Source of the DNA: Gemmatimonadota bacterium
GTDB taxonomy: Bacteria > Gemmatimonadota > Gemmatimonadetes > Gemmatimonadales > GWC2-71-9
NCBI GenBank assembly: GCA_003223395.1
Contig: QHUZ01000032.1
Coordinates: forward strand, 1-56,045
DNA length: 56,045 nucleotides
Direction of reading: 5' to 3'
This document shows, one piece after another, positions 8,213 to 52,690 of the stretch. Made by a program: the position numbers and the translations under genes. Numbering within the stretch: position 1 is the first letter of the stretch; every line of letters begins with the position of its first letter. Below the pieces are notes generated by a model that had not been told where the DNA came from, searched no databases, and saw only the letters and a list, made by a program, of their open reading frames with translations.

Positions 8213-9040
8213 GTGGCCGGCACCCTCTACGTCGTCGCGACGCCCCTCGGCAACCTCGGCGACCTCTCACCACGGGCCGCCGACACGCTGAAGCGTGTGG
8301 CGGTGGTCGCCGCCGAAGACACGCGCCACAGTAAACCGCTGCTGCACCACGCCGGCTCGCACGCCGAGCTGATCAGTTTCCACGAGCATTCATCGGACCG
8401 CGCCCTCGAGCGTATCCTGCGCATCCTTACAGATGGCCGTGACGTCGCGCTGATCACCGATGCCGGCACACCCGCGATCAGCGATCCTGGGGTCGCGCTG
8501 GTGGCCGCTGCCAGAGAACGAGGCATTCAGGTCGTCACAATCCCTGGTCCGAACGCCGTCGCTGCGAGTGTCTCAGTATCAGGGATCAGCGGCGACCGCT
8601 ATTTGTTTCTCGGTTTCCTGCCCCGCAAAGGGAGCGACCGCCGCCGTTTCCTTTTGACCGCCGCTCAGTCGGAGTGGACGGTGGTGCTGTTCGAGGCACC
8701 CAATCGCGTCACGCAACTGCTCGGCGACCTGATGGAGGTGTGTGGTCCTGAACGCCAGGCAGCCGTCTCTCGAGAGTTGACCAAAGTGTTTGAGGAGACA
8801 CGTGCGGGGACGTTGCAGGAATTGTCAGAGCACTATGCAGGGGCCCCGGTGCGGGGAGAGGTTACAGTAGTGCTCGCGGGGACCGGGAAGCAGCGCGTCG
8901 CAGCGCCGCCGCCCGACCCGGGCAAACGCGCCAAGGCTCTGCTCGCCGAGGGGCTCTCGCGGAAGGATGTGGCTCATCGATTGGCGGAAGAAACCGGAAT
9001 CTCACGAAACACCGCGTACCGGCTGGTTAGCGAACTCTGA
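8213..9040 (+). CDS. rsmI: 16S rRNA (cytidine1402-2'-O)-methyltransferase RsmI
   Basis: A 275-residue SAM-dependent tetrapyrrole-methylase-fold enzyme that 2'-O-methylates C1402 in the ribosomal P site. Diagnostic motifs are LYVVATPLGNLGDL, VAAEDTRHSK, LITDAGTPAISDPG, VVTIPGPNA, FLGFLPRKG and LFEAPNRV. The C-terminal helix-turn-helix-like end (LSRKDVAHRLAEETGISRNTAYRLV) is usual for RsmI. The start is a GTG one base after the upstream stop. Repeat DNA begins directly after the rsmI stop codon. Confidence 0.96.
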   Translation: MAGTLYVVATPLGNLGDLSPRAADTLKRVAVVAAEDTRHSKPLLHHAGSHAELISFHEHSSDRALERILRILTDGRDVALITDAGTPAISDPGVALVAAARERGIQVVTIPGPNAVAASVSVSGISGDRYLFLGFLPRKGSDRRRFLLTAAQSEWTVVLFEAPNRVTQLLGDLMEVCGPERQAAVSRELTKVFEETRAGTLQELSEHYAGAPVRGEVTVVLAGTGKQRVAAPPPDPGKRAKALLAEGLSRKDVAHRLAEETGISRNTAYRLVSEL

Positions 9041-9119
9041 GGGAACGATGGAACGATGGAAAGTTGGAATGACATTGCTGATAAGCGTCGGTTCCATCAT
9101 TCCATCATTCCATCATTCT
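9041..9119. repeat. octamer repeat A, inverted-arm copy at rsmI/DUF4159 junction
   Basis: The left arm (from 9042) has two GAACGATG octamers followed by GAAAGTTG. The right arm (9092-9118) has three tandem TTCCATCA octamers plus TTC. The arms are imperfect complements, with about one mismatch per octamer. The repeat supplies both candidate start codons of the DUF4159 gene and is translated as part of its N-terminus. Related copies are at 14755-14790 and 51734-51806. Confidence 0.88.
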
Positions 9120-9722
9120 CTCGCCTCTTTGACAATAGGTCGCCTCCACTACGACGGCGGCGGCGACTGGTACGCGAACCCCTCGAGTTTGCCGAACCTG
9201 CTCACTGCGCTGCGCGAGCGGACGACGCTGCCCGTCACCGATCGCGAGCGCGTCGTGACGCTAACGGGGCCGGAGCTCTGGGACGTCCCTTACATCTATA
9301 TGACCGGTCACGGGAACGTGCACTTCTCCGACGTCGAGATGAGGAATCTGCGGCGCTACCTGGAGCAGGGCGGCTTTCTGCACGCCGACGACAACTACGG
9401 CATGAACGCGTCGTTCCGGCGCGAGATCGCCCGCGTCTTTCCGGACCATCCGTTGGTTGAGGTGCCGTTGACGCACCCGATTTACAACCTGGTGTACGCC
9501 TTCCCCAAGGGGATTCCCAAGATCCACGAGCACGACGGGCTGCCCGCGCAGGGGTTCGGCATTTTTTTGGGAGACCGCCTTGTCGTATACTACTCCTATC
9601 AGTCCGATCTCGGGGACGGGTGGGAGGATCCCGATGTCCACCATGACCCCCCTGAGCTTCATGAGGCGGCGCTGCGGATGGGCGTGAATCTCTTCACGTA
9701 CGCGGTAAGCGGGACCAAATGA
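9048..9722 (+). CDS. DUF4159 domain protein
   Basis: A protein of 224 residues from ATG 9048. The DUF4159 core is clear: IGRLHYDGGGDWY, YIYMTGHGNVHFSD, LRRYLEQGGFLHADDNYG, and HPIYNLVYAFPKG. DUF4159 proteins are predicted to adopt a class-I-amidotransferase-like fold and are commonly encoded near DUF4175 and MoxR-type genes; their function is undefined. ATG 9069 (MTLLISVGS) is an alternative start leaving a short hydrophobic signal-like segment. The N-terminal 25 residues, including SIIPSFHHS, are encoded by octamer repeats. The stop overlaps the next ATG (ATGA). Confidence 0.88.
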   Translation: MERWKVGMTLLISVGSIIPSFHHSLASLTIGRLHYDGGGDWYANPSSLPNLLTALRERTTLPVTDRERVVTLTGPELWDVPYIYMTGHGNVHFSDVEMRNLRRYLEQGGFLHADDNYGMNASFRREIARVFPDHPLVEVPLTHPIYNLVYAFPKGIPKIHEHDGLPAQGFGIFLGDRLVVYYSYQSDLGDGWEDPDVHHDPPELHEAALRMGVNLFTYAVSGTK

Positions 9723-12700
9723 CCGAGACGGCGCGCCGGCTGCGTCGCCTGGGGGCGCCCCACGCACGCGCGCGGGCGTTCGCCGTGCTGCTCGGAGGCG
9801 TCGGCGCGGCGCTCGCGGCGGCTGCGCTCGGGCTCGCGTTGTCGCCGGCGGTGTCGGGCGTGACGCTCGCGTGGGCCCTCATCGTCGCGAGTGCCGCGGC
9901 GGCGACGTGGGCGGTGCTCCGCACGCGCCATGAAGCCGCCGCGCCAGCGCTGGGCAGGCTCATCGAGAGCGCGGCTGGTGGCCGGGCCGGAAGCATCGTC
10001 GGAGTCGTCAGTCCCACCGCAGGCAAGGGCACTGGTTCGAGCACCGCACTGCTCCTCGCTGCGGACACGCGGGCCGCCGCCGTGGTGTCGCTCGCGGCCC
10101 CAGGCGTCTCGAGCGCCATGCGGCGCACCACGCTGCGACGGGTGTCGTACGGTGCGGGCGCGGCGCTCACGGGCGGGCTGCTCTTTCTTGCGGGCTCGCC
10201 CGCGTCTGGTCGTGCGGCGGCATTCTGGCATCCGGTGCGCACCTGGCGGGAAGCGCGCGCGCCGGTCCGCTTGGTGGTAGATCAGCGCACGGTGCGTCGC
10301 GGTGGCAGTGTGACGGCGACTGTCACCGTCCCGGGCGCGGTGCGCGCGACGTTGTGGACGCGCGGGCCCGGCGAGCCGTGGAAGCCGATGCTGCTTGCCC
10401 TCGATCAAGACGGCCGCGTCGTTCAGCATGTCGGCCCGATCGAATCCGATCTGTATCTCCGCGCGTCGAGCGGCGGACGCCGCAGCGCCGAGGTCAAGAT
10501 CGACGTCGCCCTGCCGGCGTTCCTCGCCGATCTCGGACTCACCGCGCGCTTTCCTTCATATCTCAGCCGCGCCGACGAGCCGCTGCTGGTCGGTCCCGAT
10601 GTGGTTCCGCTACCGGCCGGTACGACCGTCCTGACCAACGGGACCGCGAGTGTGCCGCTCGGGAGTGCCGCCTGGACGCTCGACTCGCGCGTCGAGCAGC
10701 TGCGCGTGGTGGGCACGCGCATCGACGGCCGCTTCACGCCCGCGGCGAGCGGCACCTGGAGACTGCGCGCCCTGAGTGCCGACGGGTCCGTGCTGGAAGG
10801 CGTCGCGCCGGAGCTGCGGCTGCTGATCGTGCCCGATTCGGCGCCCGTCGTCACGTTGCCCGTCCCGAGCCGGGACACGACGCTGCCGCTTTCGCTGCAC
10901 CAGCCGCTCGTCGCGGATGTGCGCGACGATCACGGGATCTCGCGGCTCTCCGTGGTGAGCTGGCGAGTGAGCCGCACCGGCCGCGTCTTCGACGCGGTCC
11001 GGGAGTCGCTCGACGTGAGCGGGGTCGGGGACCGGGCGATCGTGCAGGGACGGCTCGATGCCGAAAAGCGCGGGCTGCTCCCTGGCGACACGCTGCGTCT
11101 GTACGTCGAAGCGCTCGACAACGCGCCGACGCCGCACCCCGGCCGCAGCGCCGAAATCGCGTTGCGGCTGCCGAGCATGGAGGAGCTGCGGGCCCAGGCG
11201 CGCGAGGCGGCGCGGTCCGTCGCCCAGGCGGCGGACTCCGTGTCGGCCGCGCAGCGCGAGTTGAGCGACCGGACGCGCGATCTCGCGTCGGAACGAAATC
11301 GAGACCAGGACGGCCGGACGGCCGGACGGCCTGAGGGCCGCAGTAGCCAGCAGCAGCAGGGCTCGATGTCGTTCCAGTCCACGCAGCGGGCTGAGGAAAT
11401 TGCGCGCGATCAGGCGGCGATGTCGCAGCGCGTCCAGGAGCTGGCGCAGGCGGTCGAAGAGATCGCGCGGGCGGCGAAGGCCGCGGGCGTGGACGACAGC
11501 GCGTTCCAGAATCGCTTGCGCGAGGTGCAGGAGCTGCTGCAGCGGGCCCTCACGCCCGAGCTCGAGCAGCGGCTCCGCGAGCTGCAGGAAGCGCTCGCGC
11601 GCCTCGATCCCGAGGCGACCCGCCAGGCCCTGCAACGCCTCGCCGAAGCGCAACAGGAGCTGCGGCGTGAGTTGGAGCGGAGTCAGGAGCTGTTCAAACG
11701 GGCCGCGCTCGAGGGCGAGCTGGCGTCGCTTGCCAAGGACGCCGAGGACCTGGAGCGCCGCCAGACCGAGTGGACCAGGGAAGAGGCGCAGCGTCCCGAT
11801 TCCGCGGCGGCTGCCGCCGAGCGCGATCTCGCCGCGGCCACCGATTCGCTGGCCAAAGGGGTGGACCGTGCCGGCGAGACCGTGCCCCTGAAGAATGCGC
11901 AGAGCGCCGCGCGCCGCGCGCAACGCGCCATGGAGGAAGCCGCGAACGCCGCGAGCCAGCGCGACTCGCGCGGCGCGAGGACATCGGGACAGGAGGCCGC
12001 CGACTCGCTCGCGCAGCTCCCGAATGCGTTGCGGCAGCGGCGCGATTCGCTGGCGGCCGCGTGGAGACAGGAAACGCTGGACGCCCTGAATCGCGCGCTC
12101 GCCGAAACGGCGGCGCTCGCGCGGCGGCAGGAGGAAGTTGCCGACGCCTTGCGCGACGGTGAAGCGGGCGCGTCCACGCGCGCGCGCCAGGCCGCCGTCG
12201 AAGAAGGGACGCACGCGATCGAGCAGGAGATCAGCGCCGCCGCGGGACGGCACGCGCTGGTATCGCCGCAGCTCGAGGCCGCGCTGGGGTATGCGCAGAA
12301 CCAGATGAAGCAGGCGCGCGAACAGCTCGAGCAGGGCGATCCCAATCCCGCCACCGCCGCCCCGTTCGCGGAGCAGGCGCTCGATGCGCTCAACGCGACG
12401 GCGCACGCACTCGTGCGGACCGCGGAGCGCGTCGCCGGAGCGCAGTCTGGATCCGGCTTCCAGGAGGCGATCGAGCAGCTCGCCCGCATGGCGCAACAGC
12501 AGCAGGGCATGAACGGTGACGCGCAGGGACTTCTGCCGATGATGGGGATGGGCGGCGACGCGATGATGCAGCGGGTGCGGGAGCTCGCCAACCGCCAGCG
12601 GCAACTCGCCGAGCAGCTGGAACGCCTCCAAGCCGGCGGCGATGCCGGCGCCGCGGGTGCGCTCGCGCAGGAAGCGCGCGAGCTCGCGCGGCAGCTCGAA

Positions 12701-14708: not shown

Positions 14709-15982
14709 AACGGCGCGCGTTCCTGAAGACGGTAAGCGCATACAGCTTCGCGTCGATCATTCCGTCATTCCATCATTCCGTCATTCCGTCGCTTTTAGTT
14801 CCGATGGACGACTCCCAAACCGACCACCTCAAGGCGTACGGTCTCACGTACAAGGCCATCCAGGCCGGGCTGAAGGCGGAGTGGCTCCTCAATTATCGCG
14901 GCGGCTCGTTCCTCATTCCCGATCTCGACGCGCTGCGACGCGATGCAGCGCTGAATGGCATCCGCACCGAGCCGGTGGACAGCGCGATGACCGCGGTGCG
15001 CGGTGAGATCGAAGCGAACAACATGGACACGGTGCCGCTCGAGAAGGCGCCGAAAGTCGCCGTCTACGCGCCGCCCAACGCCGCGCCCTGGGACGACGCG
15101 GTCACGATGGCGCTGCAGTACGCCGGGATCCCGTTCACCAAGATTTGGGACGCCGAAGTGATGAACGGCTCACTCAAGGACTTCGACTGGCTGCACCTGC
15201 ATCATGAAGACTTCACGGGCCAGTACTCGAAGTTCTTCCTGATCTACTCGGGAATGTCGTGGCTCGCGGAAATGGTGGCGCGCAACAGCGACATGGCCAG
15301 GCGCCTCGGCTTCCAGAACGTCCCCGAGCTCAAGAAGGCGGTGGCGCGGAGCATCCGGGGATACGTCGAGAACGGCGGCTTTCTGTTCGCGATGTGCACG
15401 GCAACCGAGACGATCGACCTCGCGCTCGCGGCGCACAACGTCGATATCGCCGCGACGTTTGCGGACGGCACGCCGCTCGATCCCGACGCCGATGCGAAGC
15501 TCGATTGGAGTCAGGCGTTCGCGTTCACCGGTGCGCACATCGAGACCAATCCGCTCGTGGCGAGCTTCTCCGATATCGACGGCCACCAGGTGAACGGCGG
15601 CGCGCGGCGCCAGCCGCTTGGCGCGTACACGCTGTTCAACTTCAGCGCCAAGATCGATCCGGTCCCCACGATGCTCGTGCAGGACCACCGGCAGGTCATT
15701 CCCGATTTCTACGGCCTGACGACGTCGTTCACGCGCAACCGGCTGAAGCCGGGCGTCACGATCCTGGCCGAAGAAGAAGGGGCGCCGTGGGTCAAATACG
15801 TCCACGGGGACCTGGGGAAGGGGACCTGGACGTTCCTTGGCGGGCATGACCCCGAGGATCCCCAGCATCAGATCGGCGATCCCCCGACCGATCTCTCGCT
15901 GCATCCACACTCGCCGGGCTATCGGCTGATTCTGAACAACGTGCTGTTTCCCGCCGCGAAAAAGCGCGAGCTCAAGACGTGA
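14705..15982 (+). CDS. exported 'asparagine synthetase B'-like protein of unknown function
   Basis: The start is ATG 14705, which overlaps the TPR stop as ATGA; the upstream open frame lies within the TPR gene. The 425 residues begin MKRRAFLKT, a Tat/Sec-like signal. The mature start LLVPMDDSQTDHLKAYG and WLLNYRGGSF match, from memory, a family labelled 'asparagine synthetase B' in databases, although no AsnB domain is visible. Other conserved-looking stretches are LHLHHEDFTGQYSKF, GGFLFAMCTATET and TWTFLGGHDPED, which resemble a class-I-amidotransferase fold like DUF4159. The segment SIIPSFHHSVIPS just before LLVPMDD is encoded by octamer repeat A. Confidence 0.75.
   Translation: MKRRAFLKTVSAYSFASIIPSFHHSVIPSLLVPMDDSQTDHLKAYGLTYKAIQAGLKAEWLLNYRGGSFLIPDLDALRRDAALNGIRTEPVDSAMTAVRGEIEANNMDTVPLEKAPKVAVYAPPNAAPWDDAVTMALQYAGIPFTKIWDAEVMNGSLKDFDWLHLHHEDFTGQYSKFFLIYSGMSWLAEMVARNSDMARRLGFQNVPELKKAVARSIRGYVENGGFLFAMCTATETIDLALAAHNVDIAATFADGTPLDPDADAKLDWSQAFAFTGAHIETNPLVASFSDIDGHQVNGGARRQPLGAYTLFNFSAKIDPVPTMLVQDHRQVIPDFYGLTTSFTRNRLKPGVTILAEEEGAPWVKYVHGDLGKGTWTFLGGHDPEDPQHQIGDPPTDLSLHPHSPGYRLILNNVLFPAAKKRELKT
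14755..14790. repeat. octamer repeat A, single-arm copy in a signal-peptide region
   Basis: Four tandem octamers of the form TCATTCC(G/A) fall between the signal sequence and the conserved start of the mature protein at 14705-15982. Only the C-rich arm is present. It is translated as SIIPSFHHSVIPS. Confidence 0.85.
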
Positions 15983-18534
15983 GCGTCGAGCGCCTGACGG
16001 CGGCCGCGCGCACCCTCCTGCAGGAGGAGATCGCCGCGGCCCACGGGCGCGAGGTGTCGTTCGTCGTGCGGGCCGATCCAAATGGCGCGCTCACGGACGC
16101 GCGCGTCGTCGCGCGGGGCACGATCGACGCCGTGCTCGCGCTCCCCGGCGTCGCGACGCGCGGCGAGATGCTGATCCACAACCATCCCAGCGGCTTCCTC
16201 GAGCCCTCGGGCGCCGATCTGCACGTCGCGGCGCGGTTGCACGATGAAGGCGTCGCCTTCGGGATCGTCAACAACGACGTTTCGACGCTCTACGTGGTCG
16301 TCGAGTGTCCGCGCGCGCGGACCGTCGCGCGGCTCGACTCCCTCGCGGTGGCGAATCTGCTGACGGAGTCGGGCCCAGTGGCGCGCGTCCTCGGCACGGC
16401 GGCCTTCGAAGACCGGCCGGGCCAGCGCGACATGGCGGCCTACATCGCCGACGCCTACAACGACGGCGGCATCGCGCTGCTCGAAGCGGGCACCGGCGTC
16501 GGGAAATCGTTCGCGTACCTCGTGCCGGCGATCGAGTGGGCGCGCGTCAATGGCGAACGGACCGTCGTCTCGACCAACACCATCAACCTGCAGGAACAGC
16601 TCGTCGGCAAAGATTTACCGATTCTGTCGCGCGCCTTCTCGACCGGCGAGCGGGGCGTCACGTTCGCGCTGCTCAAGGGGTGGCGGAATTACCTCTGTCT
16701 CTCGCGTTTGGAGCAGGCGCGGGCGGGACAGGAGTCGCTGTTCGACGAGGGGCGCGGCGCGGAGCTCGAGTCGATCGCGGGATGGGCCGCGCGGACGGCC
16801 GATGGGAGTCTCTCCGATCTCGTCGAAGAGCCCTCCAGCGAGGTGTGGGATGCCGTCGCGGCCGAAGCGGATCTGTGCACGCGGCTGAAGTGCCCGCATT
16901 TCGACCGCTGTTTCGTGTTCGCCGCGCGGCGCCGTGCGGCCGAAGCCGATGTCGTCGTCGTGAATCACCATCTCCTCGCCTCCGACCTCGCGGTGCGCAT
17001 CGCCTCGGACAACTGGCAGGAGGCGGCTGTGCTCCCGCCGTACCGGCGCCTCGTCCTCGACGAGGCCCATCATCTCGAGGACGTCGCCGCCCACCACCTT
17101 GGCACGCAGGTCAGCATGCTCGGTGTGCAGCGCTTGCTCGGCCGGCTCGAGCGCAATGGACGCGGATTGTTGCCGACGCTCGCCGCCGAGCTCGGCACGC
17201 ATACCGATCTGCTGGGAGCGGCGAGCCGCGACCTGTTGACGCGCACCGTGCTCGACGCGCTCATCGCGGCGCGGCGCTGGGCCGACGAGCTGTTCGGCCG
17301 GCTCGGGCGCCGGCTCGAGACCGAACAGCCTGCGACGCCGGTGCTGCGGCTCACCGATGCGTTCGCCGCCGACGCCGTGTGGCGCGAAGGACTGGACGTC
17401 GCGCTCGACAATCTGCTCGTCGCCTTCAGCAAGCTGCGCGACGGCGTCGAGACGATCGCAGACCGGCTGTCGATCGACGATCCCGCGGAGATGCGCACGC
17501 GATTGATTGGTGAGTTGCGAGGTGTCGTTCGTCGCCTCGATGCCTCGGCTGAGGCACTGAAGGCGACTCTGCAGCCAGTCCGACCGTCCGGCCGTCCGGC
17601 CGTCGGGCCGTCCGTTCGTTGGATGGAACGCCGCGGCCGCCGCACACCGAACCTCACGCTGTCCGCGGTGCCGCTCGACCTGGCGCCTGTGCTGAAGGAG
17701 GCGCTGTTCGATCGCGTCGAGACGGTCGTGCTGACGAGCGCGACGCTCGCGGCCGGCGGCGAGTTCACGTTCCTCGAGGAGCGGCTCGGTCTCTCGTTGC
17801 CGCCGTCGCGCGTGACGGTGCGCGAGATCCTGCCGTCGCCGTTCGACTTCGGCGCGCAGTGCGTCTTCGGCATCCCCACCGACATCCCGGAACCGCGGGA
17901 TGACGAGTCGGGGCACGGGGCAGCCGTCGCGCGCGTGTTGCTCGAGCTGGCGCACGCATCCGACGGCGGCATCTTCGCACTGTTTACGAGCCATGGCGCG
18001 TTGCGGCGCACCGCCGACGCGATCCGGGGGCAGGGGCACGTCGGCGCCCGCTGGCCGCTGCTCGTGCAGGGGGAGGGACAGCGCGACCAGCTATTGCGGC
18101 GGTTCCGCGATGCCGGCTCGGCGATTCTGCTGGGAACGGATTCGTTCTGGGAAGGCGTTGACGTACCAGGTCGCGCGCTGCGCGTGTTGATTCTGGCCAA
18201 GTTGCCGTTCAAGGTGCCGAGTGAGCCGCTAACCGCGGCGCGGCTGGAGCGTCTCACGGAAGCAGGTGTGGACGGCTTCAGCCACTATCTGGTTCCGCTC
18301 GCGGCGCTCAAGTTGAAACAGGGATTTGGACGGCTCATCCGTACCAAGTCCGACGTCGGGGCGGTCGTCCTGCTGGACCGACGGGTCGTGACCAAACGCT
18401 ATGGGGCCACGATGCTGGAGGGCTTGCCGCCCGCCTCCAAGGCGATCGGCAACTGGCCGGACGTGCGACGCGAGCTGGAAGAGTTCTTTGCACTGCACAG
18501 TATCGGCACGCCCGTTTCCTGGACCGGGAGCTAG
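15979..18534 (+). CDS. DinG/XPD-like helicase with N-terminal RadC/JAMM-like domain
   Basis: An 851-residue protein. Residues 1 to about 125 hold a RadC/JAMM-type motif: E25, H67-N-H69-P-S-G, then P-S77 and D80, the HxHP-SxxD signature of MPN/JAMM metal sites. Residues from about 145 are a superfamily-2 XPD/DinG helicase: Walker A EAGTGVGKS (169-177), DEAH in VLDEAHH, and four cysteines compatible with an iron-sulfur cluster (NYLCLS, then LCTRLKCPHFDRC). The C-terminal motifs are GTDSFWEGVDVPG and QGFGRLIRTKSD. DinG-type enzymes unwind DNA or R-loops. Residues of about 534-547 are encoded by octamer repeat B. It overlaps the upstream gene by 4 bases. Confidence 0.88.
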   Translation: MSVERLTAAARTLLQEEIAAAHGREVSFVVRADPNGALTDARVVARGTIDAVLALPGVATRGEMLIHNHPSGFLEPSGADLHVAARLHDEGVAFGIVNNDVSTLYVVVECPRARTVARLDSLAVANLLTESGPVARVLGTAAFEDRPGQRDMAAYIADAYNDGGIALLEAGTGVGKSFAYLVPAIEWARVNGERTVVSTNTINLQEQLVGKDLPILSRAFSTGERGVTFALLKGWRNYLCLSRLEQARAGQESLFDEGRGAELESIAGWAARTADGSLSDLVEEPSSEVWDAVAAEADLCTRLKCPHFDRCFVFAARRRAAEADVVVVNHHLLASDLAVRIASDNWQEAAVLPPYRRLVLDEAHHLEDVAAHHLGTQVSMLGVQRLLGRLERNGRGLLPTLAAELGTHTDLLGAASRDLLTRTVLDALIAARRWADELFGRLGRRLETEQPATPVLRLTDAFAADAVWREGLDVALDNLLVAFSKLRDGVETIADRLSIDDPAEMRTRLIGELRGVVRRLDASAEALKATLQPVRPSGRPAVGPSVRWMERRGRRTPNLTLSAVPLDLAPVLKEALFDRVETVVLTSATLAAGGEFTFLEERLGLSLPPSRVTVREILPSPFDFGAQCVFGIPTDIPEPRDDESGHGAAVARVLLELAHASDGGIFALFTSHGALRRTADAIRGQGHVGARWPLLVQGEGQRDQLLRRFRDAGSAILLGTDSFWEGVDVPGRALRVLILAKLPFKVPSEPLTAARLERLTEAGVDGFSHYLVPLAALKLKQGFGRLIRTKSDVGAVVLLDRRVVTKRYGATMLEGLPPASKAIGNWPDVRRELEEFFALHSIGTPVSWTGS
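17578..17617. repeat. octamer repeat B (reverse orientation) in the DinG-like gene
   Basis: There are five successive octamers: GTCCGACC, GTCCGGCC twice, GTCGGGCC and GTCCGTTC. The unit is the reverse complement of the one at 11308-11339. It is read in frame as VRPSGRPAVGPSVR between the arch-like helical region and the second helicase lobe. Confidence 0.85.
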
Positions 18535-46787: not shown

Positions 46788-47333
46788 TCACGCAAGAATC
46801 TTTTGAACGGCTTCCCCAATGTCAGCGACGACCATCACACCGAGCGCCCGCGCCTGACCCTGATGCAGGTTGCCTTCCCCCGTCGTCACCAGAACGCCGT
46901 GGCCGCCGAGTACGCGGGCCGGCTGAACATCCGAGAGACGGTCGCCGACCCACCACGACTGCGCGAAGTCGATGTCGAACGCCGCCTGCGCGTCGCGAAA
47001 CAACTTGAGACCGGGCTTGCGACAGTCGCAGGGACCGGTGAGCTGCGGGTGATGCGGGCAGAAGTAGGCGCCATCAAGGCGTGCGCCGTGCGCCGCGAGC
47101 AGTGCGCCGAGTCGTTGCTGCACCGCTTCGTAGTCGGCAACCGTGAAGCGGCCGCGCGCGATACCCGACTGGTTGGTGACAATGATGACGCGGTAGCCGC
47201 CGTCGTTGAGCCGCCGAATCGCCTCGGCGGCACCCGGCAGCAGCTTGACCTTGTCCGGCTCGTGCAGAAATCCTGGATCCTCGATGATCGTGCCGTCGCG
47301 ATCGAGGAAGACCGCGCGGGAGCCGTCAGCCAT
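46788..47333 (-). CDS. gmhB: HAD-family phosphatase, D-glycero-D-manno-heptose-1,7-bisphosphate phosphatase-like
   Basis: A 181-residue HAD phosphatase. AVFLDRDGTIIEDPGFLH carries the nucleophile Asp and the acid/base Asp. NQSGIARG is motif II. CPHHPQLTGPCDCRKP is the structural zinc loop typical of GmhB and the HisB N-terminal domain, and VGDRLSDV is motif IV. GmhB removes the 7-phosphate during ADP-heptose synthesis for lipopolysaccharide. No histidine genes are nearby, which favours GmhB over HisB-N. It overlaps the selA 3' end by 8 bases. Confidence 0.88.
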   Translation of the reverse strand: MADGSRAVFLDRDGTIIEDPGFLHEPDKVKLLPGAAEAIRRLNDGGYRVIIVTNQSGIARGRFTVADYEAVQQRLGALLAAHGARLDGAYFCPHHPQLTGPCDCRKPGLKLFRDAQAAFDIDFAQSWWVGDRLSDVQPARVLGGHGVLVTTGEGNLHQGQARALGVMVVADIGEAVQKILA

Positions 47334-48642
47334 CAGCCGTCAGTGCGGCTTTCACCGTATCGATCTGTTCCGGAAAGATTGTGCGGGCATCAAGCAAGAC
47401 GCGGCTCCCCGCCACGCGCGCGATGATCGGCGGGTCGTTGGCCCGCAGCCGCTCGGCGAGCGATTCGTCCGGGAATCCGGCGAGCCAGGTCCGCAGTTTG
47501 GCCCCCGGGAACGAGCCGCCGCCTACCTCAGAGTCTCCCTCGATCAACTGGCCGCCGAGCCGCTCGGCACGCGCCCGGATGCTGTCCCCGCTCTCGGTGA
47601 GCATCCTCAGTACGGGGATTTCACGAATGGCGACCTCCGGGTCGCGATAGAGTGCGAGGGTAGCCTCGAGCCCGGCCAGCGTAAGCTTGTCGGCACGCAC
47701 CGTGCGCGCGATGGGATCGGCGCGGCAGGCCGCAATCGCGGCCTCGCTGCCGACGAGAATCCCGGCCTGCGGCCCACCGAGCAGCTTGTCGCCGCTGAAG
47801 GCGATCAGGTCGGCGCCGGCGGCGACCGCTTCCGGAACGGTCGGCTCGCCGCTCAGTCCCCAGCCCGAAAGATTCATCATCAGGCCGCTGCCCAGGTCGT
47901 ACACGCAGGCGATGCCGCGCGCGTGCGCCATCTCTGCCAGCTCGACGACCGCGACGTCGGCGGTGAAGCCGGTCACTTGGAAATTGGAGCGGTGGACCTT
48001 CAGGAGCACTCTGCTATCAGCCGTCAGCGCTCTGTCATAATCGTTGGGATGCGTGCGATTGGTTGTGCCCACTTCCACAACCCGCGCACCAGACCGAGCC
48101 ATGATATCCGGTATGCGGAACGAGCCGCCGATTTCGACCAGCTCGCCGCGCGAGACGATCGCATCGCCGCCGCGCGCGAGCGCGCTCAATGCCAGCAGCA
48201 ACGCGCCGGCGGCGTTGTTCACGACGAGCGCATCGGCGGCGCCGGTCAGCTCCACCAGCAGATCGCGACAGATCGCGTGGCGCGAGCCGCGCGTGCCGCG
48301 GCCGAGGTCGTATTCGAGGGCGGAGTAGCCTTGGGCGATCCGGGTGACAGCGGCGATCGCCGCGGGGGCGAGCGGGGCGCGGCCGAGGTTGGTGTGCAGC
48401 ACGACGCCCGTCGCGTTGATCACCGGAGCGAGCGACGGTACCGCGAGCCGGCGGACCGCGGCCCGCACCGCGGCATCCCAGCCCTCGGCCGGCGCCGTGC
48501 CGCCTTTTACGCGCGCCTCGTCCACCGCCGCCCGCGCCGCTTTCACGACGAGTGCGCGGGGATGCGTCGCCAGGAGCGAGGCGATGCCTGGGCCCGCGAG
48601 CAGCGAGTCAACGGACGGCAACTGACGTCTGGGGTCCGTCAT
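47326..48642 (-). CDS. selA: L-seryl-tRNA(Sec) selenium transferase SelA
   Basis: A 438-residue PLP enzyme that converts Ser-tRNA(Sec) to Sec-tRNA(Sec) with selenophosphate. Motifs are RRQLPSVDSLL, INATGVVLHTNLGRAPL, EYDLGRGTRGSRH, VVNNAAGALLLAL and DLIAFSGDKLLGGPQAGI, in which the Lys binds PLP. The full length is typical. Its presence implies that the organism decodes UGA as selenocysteine, but selB, selC and selD are not in this window. It overlaps the Ig-like gene stop by 4 bases. Confidence 0.95.
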   Translation of the reverse strand: MTDPRRQLPSVDSLLAGPGIASLLATHPRALVVKAARAAVDEARVKGGTAPAEGWDAAVRAAVRRLAVPSLAPVINATGVVLHTNLGRAPLAPAAIAAVTRIAQGYSALEYDLGRGTRGSRHAICRDLLVELTGAADALVVNNAAGALLLALSALARGGDAIVSRGELVEIGGSFRIPDIMARSGARVVEVGTTNRTHPNDYDRALTADSRVLLKVHRSNFQVTGFTADVAVVELAEMAHARGIACVYDLGSGLMMNLSGWGLSGEPTVPEAVAAGADLIAFSGDKLLGGPQAGILVGSEAAIAACRADPIARTVRADKLTLAGLEATLALYRDPEVAIREIPVLRMLTESGDSIRARAERLGGQLIEGDSEVGGGSFPGAKLRTWLAGFPDESLAERLRANDPPIIARVAGSRVLLDARTIFPEQIDTVKAALTADG

Positions 48643-50054
48643 CGCGGCGGTTTCGAGGGTGGTTGAATGGGACGTGGTGCGCGGTGCGTGGTGTCTCCGC
48701 GAGCGCGTTGGGTCGAGTCGCGCACGACCGGTTTCGGCACCGTGAAGCCGATATCGCCGTCGCCCGTCTTCCCGATCAGGTTCGTCGCCCTCGTGATCCG
48801 TACCACGTAGCGCGTGTCCGGCCGCAGCCGCTGCACCAGCCGGATCACGATCTTGTCCGACGGAATCGGACGCTGCGCGAGCAGCTTCTTCACGAGCGTC
48901 GAGTCCACGTAGACCTTCACCGGCGTTCGACTCGGCGCCCCGCGGGGGGGCGGGGGCGGGGGCGGGGGCGGGGGCGGCGCGGGGGGGACCGGTGTCCCGG
49001 GGGGCACGGGCGGGTGAATGTTCGGACGCGCCGCGGTGTCGTGCACCATCGCCGGACGCTTGGTCGTGTCGCGCGCCGCGGCGGCGGCCGAATCCGCTTT
49101 CTGCCGTGCCGCGGCGGCCGCAGTGGTCAGCGAATCGTACGCGCGCTGCGTGAGAATGCGTTCGATATCCACGGGCGTCGAATCGGGCAGCTCGATCAGA
49201 TGCACGTGCGTCGTGTCGAGCGATTTGGCGGGGTCGAGCGCCTGGCTGAACTCGACGCGCACCGAAACGGAATCGACGGATGTCGCGGCGCGGGGACGCG
49301 GTGGAACGGTGTCGTGCGGGAAGGTGAAGAGCGCGACGTTGGAGGACGAATCGAGCGTCACGGTGACGGAGTCGTACGCTTCGCGCAGGCCGCGGTGCCG
49401 GTCGCCGTTTTCATCCGCCGTCGCATACACGATGTAGTGCCCTGGCTGCAGGTTCGTCAGGTTGAACTGGCCGCCCGAGTCGGCCATGGTCAAGTAGCCG
49501 ACGCTGTCGGGGAGCGGCACCGCCTCGATCAGCCCGCGTACCAGCACCGCCTGCTCTAGCCACTTGAGCGCGATCCCGCCGATGCGCGCGTGCCCGATCT
49601 CGGGGCCGGTCGAGAACAGCACCACCTTGGCGGAGTCGCTGCGATTGCGGCGCAGGTCGCTAAAGCCCGGCATGATCTCGAGCCGGTAGACGCGCCGCTT
49701 CCAGCCCTCCTTCGGTTTGATGCTGACGCGGGTGCGATGCCAGCTCACTTTTACGGGACCGGCCACTGGCGACAGCAGAACCTGCTTCTCGAGCAGGCTC
49801 ATCGTTCCAGCTCCACCACCACCGGCCATTTCATCGATGACTTCATTGAATTGAATCGCGGCGTCGCCGTGGAAGTTGGGGACCATGGCGCCCGATTCCG
49901 GCTTCACCTGGACGATTTTGGGAGGCTCCTTGTCCGGCGGCCCGCCGGGCGGGGCGCCGACACTCGCGCACGCGAGCAGCAGCGCGCCGAGCGCTCCTAT
50001 GAACAGCCGAGGGACTTGAGCTTGCCGGCCAGGACGTCGCGCTGATCGCGCCAT
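48639..50054 (-). CDS. Ig-like domain lipoprotein with poly-proline linker
   Basis: A 471-residue protein with a hydrophobic leader ending in a lipobox (LGALLLACASV, Cys near residue 29). Residues of about 40-160 form a bacterial Ig-like (SbsA/Big_5) domain: PPKIVQVKPESGAMV and AIQFNEVIDE. A second beta domain follows (GGQFNLTNLQPGHYIVYATAD). The C-terminal part contains an Ala/Asp-rich helix and a proline tract encoded by GGGGGC repeats on the plus strand. The start is uncertain because the first 19 codons lie inside the valS 3' end. It is probably anchored at the cell surface. Confidence 0.78.
   Translation of the reverse strand: MARSARRPGRQAQVPRLFIGALGALLLACASVGAPPGGPPDKEPPKIVQVKPESGAMVPNFHGDAAIQFNEVIDEMAGGGGAGTMSLLEKQVLLSPVAGPVKVSWHRTRVSIKPKEGWKRRVYRLEIMPGFSDLRRNRSDSAKVVLFSTGPEIGHARIGGIALKWLEQAVLVRGLIEAVPLPDSVGYLTMADSGGQFNLTNLQPGHYIVYATADENGDRHRGLREAYDSVTVTLDSSSNVALFTFPHDTVPPRPRAATSVDSVSVRVEFSQALDPAKSLDTTHVHLIELPDSTPVDIERILTQRAYDSLTTAAAAARQKADSAAAAARDTTKRPAMVHDTAARPNIHPPVPPGTPVPPAPPPPPPPPPPPRGAPSRTPVKVYVDSTLVKKLLAQRPIPSDKIVIRLVQRLRPDTRYVVRITRATNLIGKTGDGDIGFTVPKPVVRDSTQRARGDTTHRAPRPIQPPSKPPR
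48947..48990. repeat. GGGGGC-type hexamer tract encoding poly-proline
   Basis: The plus strand carries successive GGGGGC units that read as Pro codons on the minus strand within the Ig-like lipoprotein gene. Runs of five or more G give strong G-quadruplex potential and are prone to length variation and sequencing error. Confidence 0.75.
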
Positions 50055-52690
50055 GCCTTTTCCTTTTCGCGCTCCTTGGCCACAACGTCCTGTGGCGCGC
50101 GGGACACAAAGCTCTCGTTGGTGAGCCGGGCGGCCAGACCCTTGAGCTGATTGTCCAGCCTGCCGAGCTCGTCACTCAGCCGGCGACACTCCTGCTGCAC
50201 GTCGATCGTGCCTTCCAGCGCGACCACGACTTCGCTGCCGTCACCGAAGATGGCGTGCGCTCCCGCGCCGTGCGGCACGCCCCCCCCCTCCCCGTCGAGC
50301 GCGAGGCTGTCGAGCTGCGCCAGCCGCACGATCGTGTCGCGCTCGCCGTCGAATGTCGCGGCCTTGTCGTTGCCGCGGAGTACGATCGTCGCCCGCAGCC
50401 TGGTCTTGGGTGCGACCCGGTACTCCGCGCGAATCGACCGGATCTGCTCGATCACCGTCTTCACGCGCGCAAACTCCTGATCGGCGCGCGGATCCTCGAG
50501 CTCGGGTCGCGGTGCCGGCCACTCCGCCGTCACGAGCAGCTCGCTTGGCTTGCGGCCCGGCAGCTTCTGCCACAGCTCCTCAGTAATGAAAGGGACGATC
50601 GGGTGAAGCAGGCGCAGTGACAGGTCGAAGCAGTACGCCAGCACGGCTTTGGCTGCCGGATCCTCGAGCCTGGGTTTCACCGCCTCCACGTACCAGTCGG
50701 CAAGCTCATTCCAGACGAACTCGAAGCAGCGCTTGGCCGCTTCGTCGAGCCGGAACTGCTCGAGCGACGCGGTCGCTTCGCGGATCACGGCCTGGGCGCG
50801 CGACAGGATCCAGCGGTCGGTCAGGGTGAGCGCGCGGCGATCGACCGCGTCGACCGCGGGCACGCTCTTGGGGAGCTGGCCGAGGACGAACTGCGCGATG
50901 TTCCAGAGCTTGTTCGCGAAGTTGCGGCCCGGCGCGAACGTCGTCTCGAGGTCGTCGGGATCGAGCTGCAGGTCTGCGCCGAGCGCGGTGTTGGCCACGC
51001 AGGTCCAGCGCAGCGCGTCGGCGCCGAACTTCTCCACCACGACGAGCGGATCGATGCCGTTGCCCAGGGACTTCGACATCTTGCGATGCTTGGTGTCGCG
51101 CGCGATGCCATGCAGGTACACCGTCGTGAACGGCTTCTTGCCCATGAAGTGGTAGCCCGACATCAGCATGCGCGCGACCCAGAAGAACAGGATGTCGGGC
51201 CCCGTCACGAGCGTGTGGCCGGGATAGAAGCGCTTCAGGTCGGGCGTCTCTTCCGGCCAGCCGAACGTCGCGAACGGCCACAGCCACGACGAGAACCAGG
51301 TGTCGAGCACGTCGGGATCCTGCGCGACGCCGGCGCCGCATGTGGGACACTGCTCCGGGTCTTCGCGATCCGCCCAGACATGCCCGTTCGCGCAGGTGAA
51401 CACCGGAATCCGGTGGCCCCACCACAGCTGCCGCGAGATGTTCCAATCCCGGATGTTGTTCATCCAGTTCTCGAACGTCGCGTTCCAGCGCTCCGGCACG
51501 ATATGGAACTCGCCCGCCGCGTATCCCTGCATCACGCGCTCGGCGAGCGGCTTCATCTTCACGAACCATTGGTCCGAGAGCCGGGGCTCAACCACCGTAT
51601 CGCACCGATAGCAGCGCCGCACTGAATGGTGATGCTGCTCGGTTTTGACGAGAAGACCTTCCCGCTCTAACTGCTTTACGATCTTTTTTCGAGCTTCGAA
51701 CCGATCAATGCCAACGAGATCCGGTGGCACGCGGGAATGATGGAATGATGGAATGATGGAATGTTGCTTCGTTCCATCGTTCCCACTTTCCATCTTTCCA
51801 TCTTCCGTCAGGATCAACGGCATTTCAGACTGCGGCCACACCCGCCGGGCGATATCAAAGTCGTTTGCATCGTGAGCGGGAGTGACCTTCAACATTCCCG
51901 TCCCGAACGCCTGATCCACCGCGTCGTCCGTCGCAATCGGAATGGCGACACCGGACAGCGGGATCTTCGCCCGCTTGCCGTTGAGCTTCTTGTAGCGTGC
52001 GTCCTTCGGATTGAACACCAGCCCGATGTCGCCGAACATCGTCTCCGGCCGGGTCGTCGCGACCGTCACGAAACCGGAGCCGTCCTCGAGCGGATACTTG
52101 ATGTGATACAGGTTGCCCTGCGTCTCGTGGTGCTCCGCTTCTTCATCGGATAGCGCGGTGAGGCAGTGCGGGCACCAGTGGATCACGCGGTGGCCGCGAT
52201 AGATCAGTCCCTCGTCCCACAGCCGCACGAACACCTCGCGCACGGCACGCGAGTAGTCTTCGTCGAGCGTGAAGCGCAGCCGCGACCAGTCGCACGAGCT
52301 GCCGATCACCTTCAGCTGCTCGATGATCGTGTTGCCCGTCTTCTTGACGAAGCACCAGACTTCCTCGACGAACTGCTCGCGGCCCAGGTCGAACCGGGTC
52401 TTGCCATCCTTGGCGAGACGCTTCTCGACCACGTTTTGCGTCGCGATCCCGGCGTGATCGGTCCCCGGCAGCCACTCGGCGGCGCGGCCGCGCATCCGCT
52501 CGAAGCGGATCAGCACGTCCTGAATGACGTTGTTGAGGGCGTGGCCGACGTGCAGGATGTCGGTGACGTTGGGGGGCGGAATAACGATGACGTACGGCTC
52601 GGCGCCCGCCCCTTCCCGCGGCTGAAACGCGCCGGCGTCGAGCCAGCGCTTGTAGATGCGGGGTTCTACGGGCCGCGGATCGTATGCCAT
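49997..52690 (-). CDS. valS: valine--tRNA ligase ValS
   Basis: An 897-residue class-I synthetase. The ATP-site signature is VTDILHVGHALNN (HIGH equivalent HVGH), followed by the CP1 editing domain with TTRPETMFGDIG, zinc-finger-like CxxC pairs (RRCYRCD; CPTCG), the HRKMSKSLGN loop (KMSKS) and a C-terminal coiled coil (LSDELGRLDNQLKGLAARL). Residues of about 295-319 (between LILTEDGKM and LVGIDRFEARKKIV) form a repeat-encoded insert (SGNDGTKQHSIIPSFHHSR) in the editing region. It is the first gene of the long leftward operon. Confidence 0.96.
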   Translation of the reverse strand: MAYDPRPVEPRIYKRWLDAGAFQPREGAGAEPYVIVIPPPNVTDILHVGHALNNVIQDVLIRFERMRGRAAEWLPGTDHAGIATQNVVEKRLAKDGKTRFDLGREQFVEEVWCFVKKTGNTIIEQLKVIGSSCDWSRLRFTLDEDYSRAVREVFVRLWDEGLIYRGHRVIHWCPHCLTALSDEEAEHHETQGNLYHIKYPLEDGSGFVTVATTRPETMFGDIGLVFNPKDARYKKLNGKRAKIPLSGVAIPIATDDAVDQAFGTGMLKVTPAHDANDFDIARRVWPQSEMPLILTEDGKMESGNDGTKQHSIIPSFHHSRVPPDLVGIDRFEARKKIVKQLEREGLLVKTEQHHHSVRRCYRCDTVVEPRLSDQWFVKMKPLAERVMQGYAAGEFHIVPERWNATFENWMNNIRDWNISRQLWWGHRIPVFTCANGHVWADREDPEQCPTCGAGVAQDPDVLDTWFSSWLWPFATFGWPEETPDLKRFYPGHTLVTGPDILFFWVARMLMSGYHFMGKKPFTTVYLHGIARDTKHRKMSKSLGNGIDPLVVVEKFGADALRWTCVANTALGADLQLDPDDLETTFAPGRNFANKLWNIAQFVLGQLPKSVPAVDAVDRRALTLTDRWILSRAQAVIREATASLEQFRLDEAAKRCFEFVWNELADWYVEAVKPRLEDPAAKAVLAYCFDLSLRLLHPIVPFITEELWQKLPGRKPSELLVTAEWPAPRPELEDPRADQEFARVKTVIEQIRSIRAEYRVAPKTRLRATIVLRGNDKAATFDGERDTIVRLAQLDSLALDGEGGGVPHGAGAHAIFGDGSEVVVALEGTIDVQQECRRLSDELGRLDNQLKGLAARLTNESFVSRAPQDVVAKEREKEKAWRDQRDVLAGKLKSLGCS
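51734..51806. repeat. octamer repeat A, inverted-arm copy inside valS
   Basis: In plus-strand order, three exact GAATGATG-phase octamers (51734-51763) are followed by a loop of about seven bases and a degenerate pyrimidine-rich arm (51771-51806). On the coding (minus) strand the degenerate purine arm comes first, then three perfect TTCCATCA units. It is translated in frame as the valS insert. Confidence 0.9.

Follow-up and report, generated by a model that had tools for sequence, protein, structure and literature searches.

An octamer-repeat array translated in the editing-domain linker of valyl-tRNA synthetase, one of many short dispersed arrays in a soil Gemmatimonadota genome

Dispersed heptameric G-rich repeats of the GGGNATC type have been described in Xanthomonas and Nostoc (Rehm 2015, PMC4692102), and heptanucleotide repeats of Calothrix are mentioned in the same paper. 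These form short arrays, often of about four units, between aligned ORFs. Their unit is 7 bp long, a single main unit was studied in each genome, they are under-represented in coding regions, and 70-75 cases of two nearby convergent arrays are recorded in Xanthomonas (PMC4692102). The TAACTGA repeats of Beggiatoaceae (MacGregor 2015, PMC4679880) are direct repeats with one indirect pair only and are mostly intergenic, their stop-free orientation is translated in some ORFs, mostly at protein ends, and a putative RNA polymerase beta' subunit contains one array (PMC4679880). Palindromic elements of Rickettsia occur in frame in unrelated protein genes, are about 150 bp long (the criterion being about 100-150 bp) and have a conserved encoded peptide (PMC10969869), and in REP/REPIN systems two inverted short repeats form a dispersed hairpin (PMC3116915). 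In heterocystous cyanobacteria, families of short tandem repeats (STRR) are scattered over the genome. Cyanobacterial STRRs invade functional genes, namely rnpB and the tRNA-Leu intron, and REP/REPIN sequences are linked to the RAYT transposase. The literature searched, which omits most subscription journals, gave no report of arrays of this kind in Gemmatimonadota.

In this study, we describe a two-armed octamer array within valS of a Gemmatimonadota soil MAG (G000; assembly of 3.41 Mb in 123 contigs, 97.6% complete), on a window that is the whole length of contig C59, 56,045 bases. Like STRR/LSSR repeats, the octamer (octamer A) is a tandem unit within the 5-11 bp range and recurs at many separate loci of the genome. 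STRR/LSSR arrays are usually intergenic; 14 octamer-A arrays of G000 read as coding and 7 as non-coding in a small set that was classified by hand with start codons inferred from the sequence. Compared with the repeats of Xanthomonas and Nostoc, G000 has units of 7, 8 and 10 bp and many types per genome, and 14/21 octamer-A arrays are apparently translated; compared with Beggiatoaceae, it has inverted pairs, an array in an internal loop of a single-copy synthetase and units that are species-specific at one site. The cyanobacterial STRRs belong to another phylum, and the cases above concern RNA genes, not an essential protein. As with the Rickettsia elements, arrays are in frame in unrelated genes (ValS, ImuB-like, DinG-like and the N-terminus of RuvX), but they have neither a defined length nor a conserved peptide, since length and loop are variable and the units species-specific. 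Unlike REP/REPINs, they consist of tandem octamers, not single REPs, and show no Y1_Tnp association; neither hallmark of the REP/REPIN-RAYT system, a RAYT in repeat-bearing genomes and a RAYT flanked by repeats, applies here.

The features of valS are as follows, in window positions:

49997..52690, minus strand: valS, valyl-tRNA synthetase, 897 aa, intact, an ORF without stop
51734..51805, minus strand: two-armed octamer array, in frame in the ORF, encoding ValS residues 296-319 (E296-S319), EDGKMESGNDGTKQHSIIPSFHHS
51734..51767, minus strand: pyrimidine arm (of the coding strand), perfect (ATTCCATC)n, encoding HSIIPSFHHS, found by TRF
51768..51805, minus strand: purine arm (of the coding strand), degenerate GATGGAAN octamers, stop-free, overlapping the native EDGKM codons
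51734..51790, minus strand: residues 301-319, standing where G006 has four residues (ERSP), net +15 aa, by congener alignment

The coding strand reads GAA GATGGAAA GATGGAAA GTGGGAAC GATGGAAC GAAGCAAC ATTCCATC ATTCCATC ATTCCATC ATTCC, which is five degenerate purine octamers followed by about 3.6 perfect pyrimidine octamers, and on the plus strand TRF reports (GGAATGAT)x3.8 with 100% matches at 51734-51763. The array RNA is predicted to form a hairpin of -30.3 kcal/mol, with a z of -4.26 against dinucleotide shuffles. An 18-mer of two octamers, with at most 3 mismatches, was found 10 times in the window versus 0.01 expected, and no shuffle reached 10. The TRF result, this count and the stop-free 897-aa ORF confirm the view of the first-pass annotation that an octamer array is present and translated in ValS. 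That annotation had also held the purine arm to be degenerate exactly so as to avoid stops. Perfecting the second purine octamer alone creates a TGA in the ValS frame, and perfecting any other single unit creates no stop, thus stop avoidance constrains one unit and does not dictate the arm, and the proposal stands for that unit only. A T follows GGAA in 85/142 units across the examined arrays versus 0/4 in the ValS purine arm, a mildly unusual difference (p roughly 0.03).

The enzyme that carries the array appears intact, with the Pfam domains tRNA-synt_1, Anticodon_1 and Val_tRNA-synt_C, both catalytic motifs (HVGH and KMSKS) and a phmmer match to the Thermus thermophilus ValRS structure 1GAX of E=5.7e-223. 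ValS has itself as its only strong match in the G000 genome, the next synthetase-like matches, taken to be IleRS and LeuRS, being at E about 1e-17 or weaker, and valS is apparently single copy. Alignment to 1GAX and to the isolated ValRS structures 1WK9 and 1WKA, which align to ValS residues 190-352, places the insert inside the editing (CP1) domain, after the TPAHDxxDF segment. We take the aspartates of this segment to be editing-site residues, as in T. thermophilus ValRS; D277 is invariant in the ValS alignment. AlphaFold2 (14 ValS sequences) gave a mean pLDDT of 85.7, and the sole segment with pLDDT below 50 was residues 304-317, so that the insert is probably a disordered surface loop in an otherwise well-predicted enzyme. 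The structure alignment and the low-confidence loop thus bear out that a repeat is read in frame within the editing domain of a synthetase that is essential and apparently single copy. ValS with the insert would be active as an enzyme, and given the intact core it most likely tolerates the insert, which would be near-neutral rather than adaptive.

Comparison was made with genomes of only 72-87% nucleotide identity to G000, the named congeners being soil Gemmatimonadetes MAGs, e.g. 13_2_20CM_2_65_7, AG14 and AG38. In aligned proteins and DNA, octamer A is absent from the ValS linker of G002, G006, G007, G008 and G009, and the search for sisters that have the same residues without the octamer DNA showed that congeners lack both; the assembly of G005, the closest sister of G000, gave no ValS match. 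From the conserved M to the conserved R-V-P, G000 has 19 residues versus 4 in G006, and the M-to-G linker has 26 residues versus 11-14 in four measured congeners, a net gain of 12-15 residues in G000. The figure of about 25 added residues proposed earlier is the coding length of the array. Linker length ranges from 9 to 28 residues across the family and 1GAX has almost no residues at this position, thus the region is not conserved and continuous as had been supposed. The native EDGxM codons of ValS (GATGGNNNNATGG) are already unit-like.

The ValS linker is a hotspot for unrelated 7-8-bp arrays in other species, which the earlier reading overlooked, as it did the translation of these repeats in many further proteins. 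Among the ValS genes of 42 family genomes, 12 period-7/8 arrays were counted, leaving out N runs and stretches upstream of the start, and 8 of these, in 7 species, lie within the linker (binomial P about 2e-9, with the linker taken as 35 codons); one of the eight, the L152 array, was assigned by hand where the script missed it because the frame extends upstream. At least six other species carry 7-8-bp arrays unlike that of G000. The units are GGAATGAT in G000, GTCGGACN in G019, GGGCGGAC in G046, heptamers of GGGACGG (G047) and GGGAAAC (G042), a GGGGAAG-like unit (G024) and GGGGACG (G002). The congener G001 (L055) shows an imperfect GGCGGTCAA repeat as well. No linker arrays were found in 14 genomes from two sister families.

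Beyond valS, the G000 genome holds about 20 further GGAAYGAT arrays, dispersed and mostly two-armed hairpins, and octamer A has 55 forward and 50 reverse matches (at most 3 mismatches) against 0 for the reversed-pattern control. The arms are convergent in all two-armed copies. When the arrays were examined singly, 14/21 read as coding, N-terminal or internal, and 7/21 as non-coding, and among the coding 14, the internal ones are those of ValS and an ImuB-like Y-family polymerase, N-terminal extensions occur in RuvX and a laccase-domain protein, and ten N-termini look like signal peptides, in proteins that include LolA, an M16 peptidase, a SPOR protein, an M19 dipeptidase and a DUF4159 protein. 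In these predicted signal peptides the last residues of the signal come from the pyrimidine arm (often ...SIIPSFHLSAQ), and in many cases the purine arm supplies the putative start codon; purine arms at gene junctions contain stop and start codons. Two such arrays lie in the window:

9037..9123, plus strand: octamer-A hairpin, its pyrimidine arm forming the predicted signal-peptide end of a DUF4159 protein (MTLLISVGSIIPSFHHSLA...)
14752..14791, plus strand: octamer-A array with a single arm, translated as part of a Tat-like signal peptide (MKRRAFLKTVSAYSFASIIPSFHHSVIPSLL)

At 9037-9123, 14752-14791, L035, L038, L039, L040, L042, L043, L046 and L047, octamer A reads as the start codon and the signal-peptide end of proteins that would be exported. 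Repeat-derived signal peptides may be common in the G000 genome, as judged from the reading frames. Within an element, octamer-A arms are no more alike (18.1) than between elements (19.9; permutation p 0.999), and local hairpin copying was therefore dropped for these elements.

Arrays with other units are also frequent. Octamer B has the consensus GGACSGYC, with 49 matches to its pattern in the G019 genome, and it too is read in frame in the window:

11305..11339, plus strand: array of octamer B (GGACGGCC), read in phase within a 653-aa frame that has no Pfam match (DQDGRTAGRPEGR)
17576..17614, plus strand: array of octamer B, read in phase within a DinG-like helicase (VRPSGRPAVGPSVRW)

At the DinG-like site, G000 has VRPSGRPAVGPSVRW, G005 has VRPSGRPTVGPSVRW and five congeners have GYRAPAGPAVRW or similar, in orthologues of 91-94% protein identity. 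About 12 residues are replaced in G000 and G005 (L185-L193) with a net change of +2 aa, thus the native sequence was overwritten and not merely interrupted; the array-free DinG of G001 has a native CCGGCCGCGGGCCCGGCCGTCCG that resembles the unit. The match of the G003 orthologue is split in two, and one of the parts carries a flagged TAA.

Since units differ between species, a search for a single octamer across the family under-counts arrays, and abundance was measured by period-based scans instead. In unbiased samples of 400-450 kb, period-8 arrays numbered 18 in G000, 7 in G002 and 0 in G031, a genome of the same taxonomic order, and period-7 arrays numbered 21, 28 and 1, respectively. The period-7 arrays (GGGACGG, GGATTGC, AGCCGTC and others) are of many unit types, have a frequency like that of the octamers and include some inverted pairs; examples are:

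L098, 575-724: period-7 array
L116, 2650-2729: period-7 array
L125, 4877-4953: period-7 array
Window, 47321-47343: period-7 array

Inverted pairs of period 10 were also seen (GACGGTAAAA / TTACCGTCTC and GGGCGGCGAA / CCGCCCTCCA; L093 18205-18275 and L103 9719-9816). A common unit framework, GGNNNGNN, was set aside because free rotation and strand choice make a match nearly trivial.

The exchange of units at one site is best seen in the signal peptide of LolA, compared in ten congeners (L076-L085), where the array of G008 was identified by inspection and G004 and G006 have none. In the arrays of seven congeners, the arms match better within species (20.9) than between species (8.2; permutation p=0.0003), and the units are GGAATGAT in G000, GGGCGGAT in G005, GGATCGGC/GGGCGGAT in G002, GGCACGTC in G001, G009 and G008, GGAAGGTT in G003 and GGCGGGCT in G007. 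A five-gene tree gives G000 and G005, and G002 and G009, as sisters with full support for both pairs, thus the LolA units do not track the tree. The loop between the arms is MIALVAL versus MIAVLLLVAL in the signal core of the array-free G004, suggesting that the arms flank native-like sequence. Hairpin folding reached z values of -4.3 to -9.0 at ValS and the tested LolA array sites versus -0.3 and -0.6 in array-free LolA. As in LolA, ImuB and RuvX have one site with different units among congeners. At the internal ImuB-like site (L068, L069-L075), G000 has octamer A, G001, G002 and G007 have octamer B, G003 and G006 have GGAATGTT-like units, as judged from the encoded residues, and G008 has no array; the ImuB-like copy of G002 has one TGA inside the matched stretch. 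At the RuvX start (L176 vs L177), G000 and G003, which are not sisters, have different units and a common outer flank, CCCGCAGGGCGC. The start codon of RuvX in G000 appears, from the aligned sequences, to have moved into the array.

Taken together, the valS array is probably one array of an STRR/LSSR-like class, spread by local copying and kept where reading frame and protein survive. In this explanation the class would comprise genome-wide arrays that have 7-10-bp units and in many cases form pairs of inverted arms. The arrays would arise most likely by replication slippage together with template switching or short-homology conversion among copies at different loci, putatively seeded on native sequence that already resembled the unit. 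Selection would retain them at gene junctions, signal peptides and surface linkers only, and in valS an octamer-A array would have taken over the linker between the TPAHDxxDF editing-site segment and the RVP...DRFEAR helix. Against this explanation, slippage alone accounts for neither the genome-wide unit family nor two inverted arms with one and the same unit at a single site, and no donor-recipient conversion event was traced. That the linker diverged and resembles the octamer by chance can practically be discarded, although the linker is variable and its EDGxM codons are unit-like, since 3.8 perfect octamers are identical to a dispersed family found far above expectation in the window, and the octamer is seen at many other loci of G000. 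It is very unlikely that short reads were mis-joined at a dispersed repeat during assembly or binning: the MAG is fragmented and dispersed repeats invite misassembly, but the join preserves the ValS frame with ValS on both flanks, arrays in the ValS linker recur in independent MAGs, the DinG array is common to the sister G005, and the valS array has only 72 bp, which is within the span of ordinary reads.

The two-armed, dispersed form of the arrays, their place at gene junctions and the presence of Y1_Tnp in most congeners recall REP/REPIN-like or MITE-like hairpins moved by a transposase such as RAYT. We nevertheless regard mobile hairpins as unlikely, since G007 (97% complete) has arrays and no Y1_Tnp match, the ten Y1_Tnp genes examined have no period-7/8/10 array closer than about 1 kb, units differ among species at one site, and DinG was overwritten without a clean insertion. 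No target-site duplications were seen at ValS, LolA, RuvX and DinG, in a comparison of genomes that are 72-87% identical at the nucleotide level. RAYT mobility was thus dropped as favoured mechanism, the Y1_Tnp correlation being loose and arrays being absent near the ten Y1_Tnp genes. A functional RNA or DNA element, selected for pairing in translation coupling, mRNA stability or protein binding and merely tolerated by ValS, would be consistent with the strong folding at ValS and LolA, with arms that match within species in LolA despite differing units, and with convergent arms whose purine copies hold the stop and start codons of junctions. However, arms drawn from one unit family pair automatically, octamer A has no excess pairing within elements, several orthologues are array-free at those sites and valS offers no internal junction that could be regulated, so that selection for pairing is a rather improbable cause.

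We therefore return to arrays of an STRR/LSSR-like class, which we read as tolerated or exapted in proteins. Different 7-8-base repeats occur in the same loop and in other proteins across species, suggesting that such repeats repeatedly become protein where they do little harm. It is possible, and we put it forward tentatively, that an active process in the family places hairpin arrays at preferred sites and also converts those already there, altering the two arms jointly, which would give the differing units of LolA, ImuB, RuvX and ValS among species and would be a continuing source of start codons, signal peptides and enzyme loops. Because the same sites bear different units in close species, the creation and replacement of STRR-type arrays can be studied here by comparison of congeners. 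In the arrays of this family, the turning of selfish or mutational repeats into protein sequence can thus be counted in a natural setting, with cases in a loop of a single-copy aminoacyl-tRNA synthetase and in several signal peptides.
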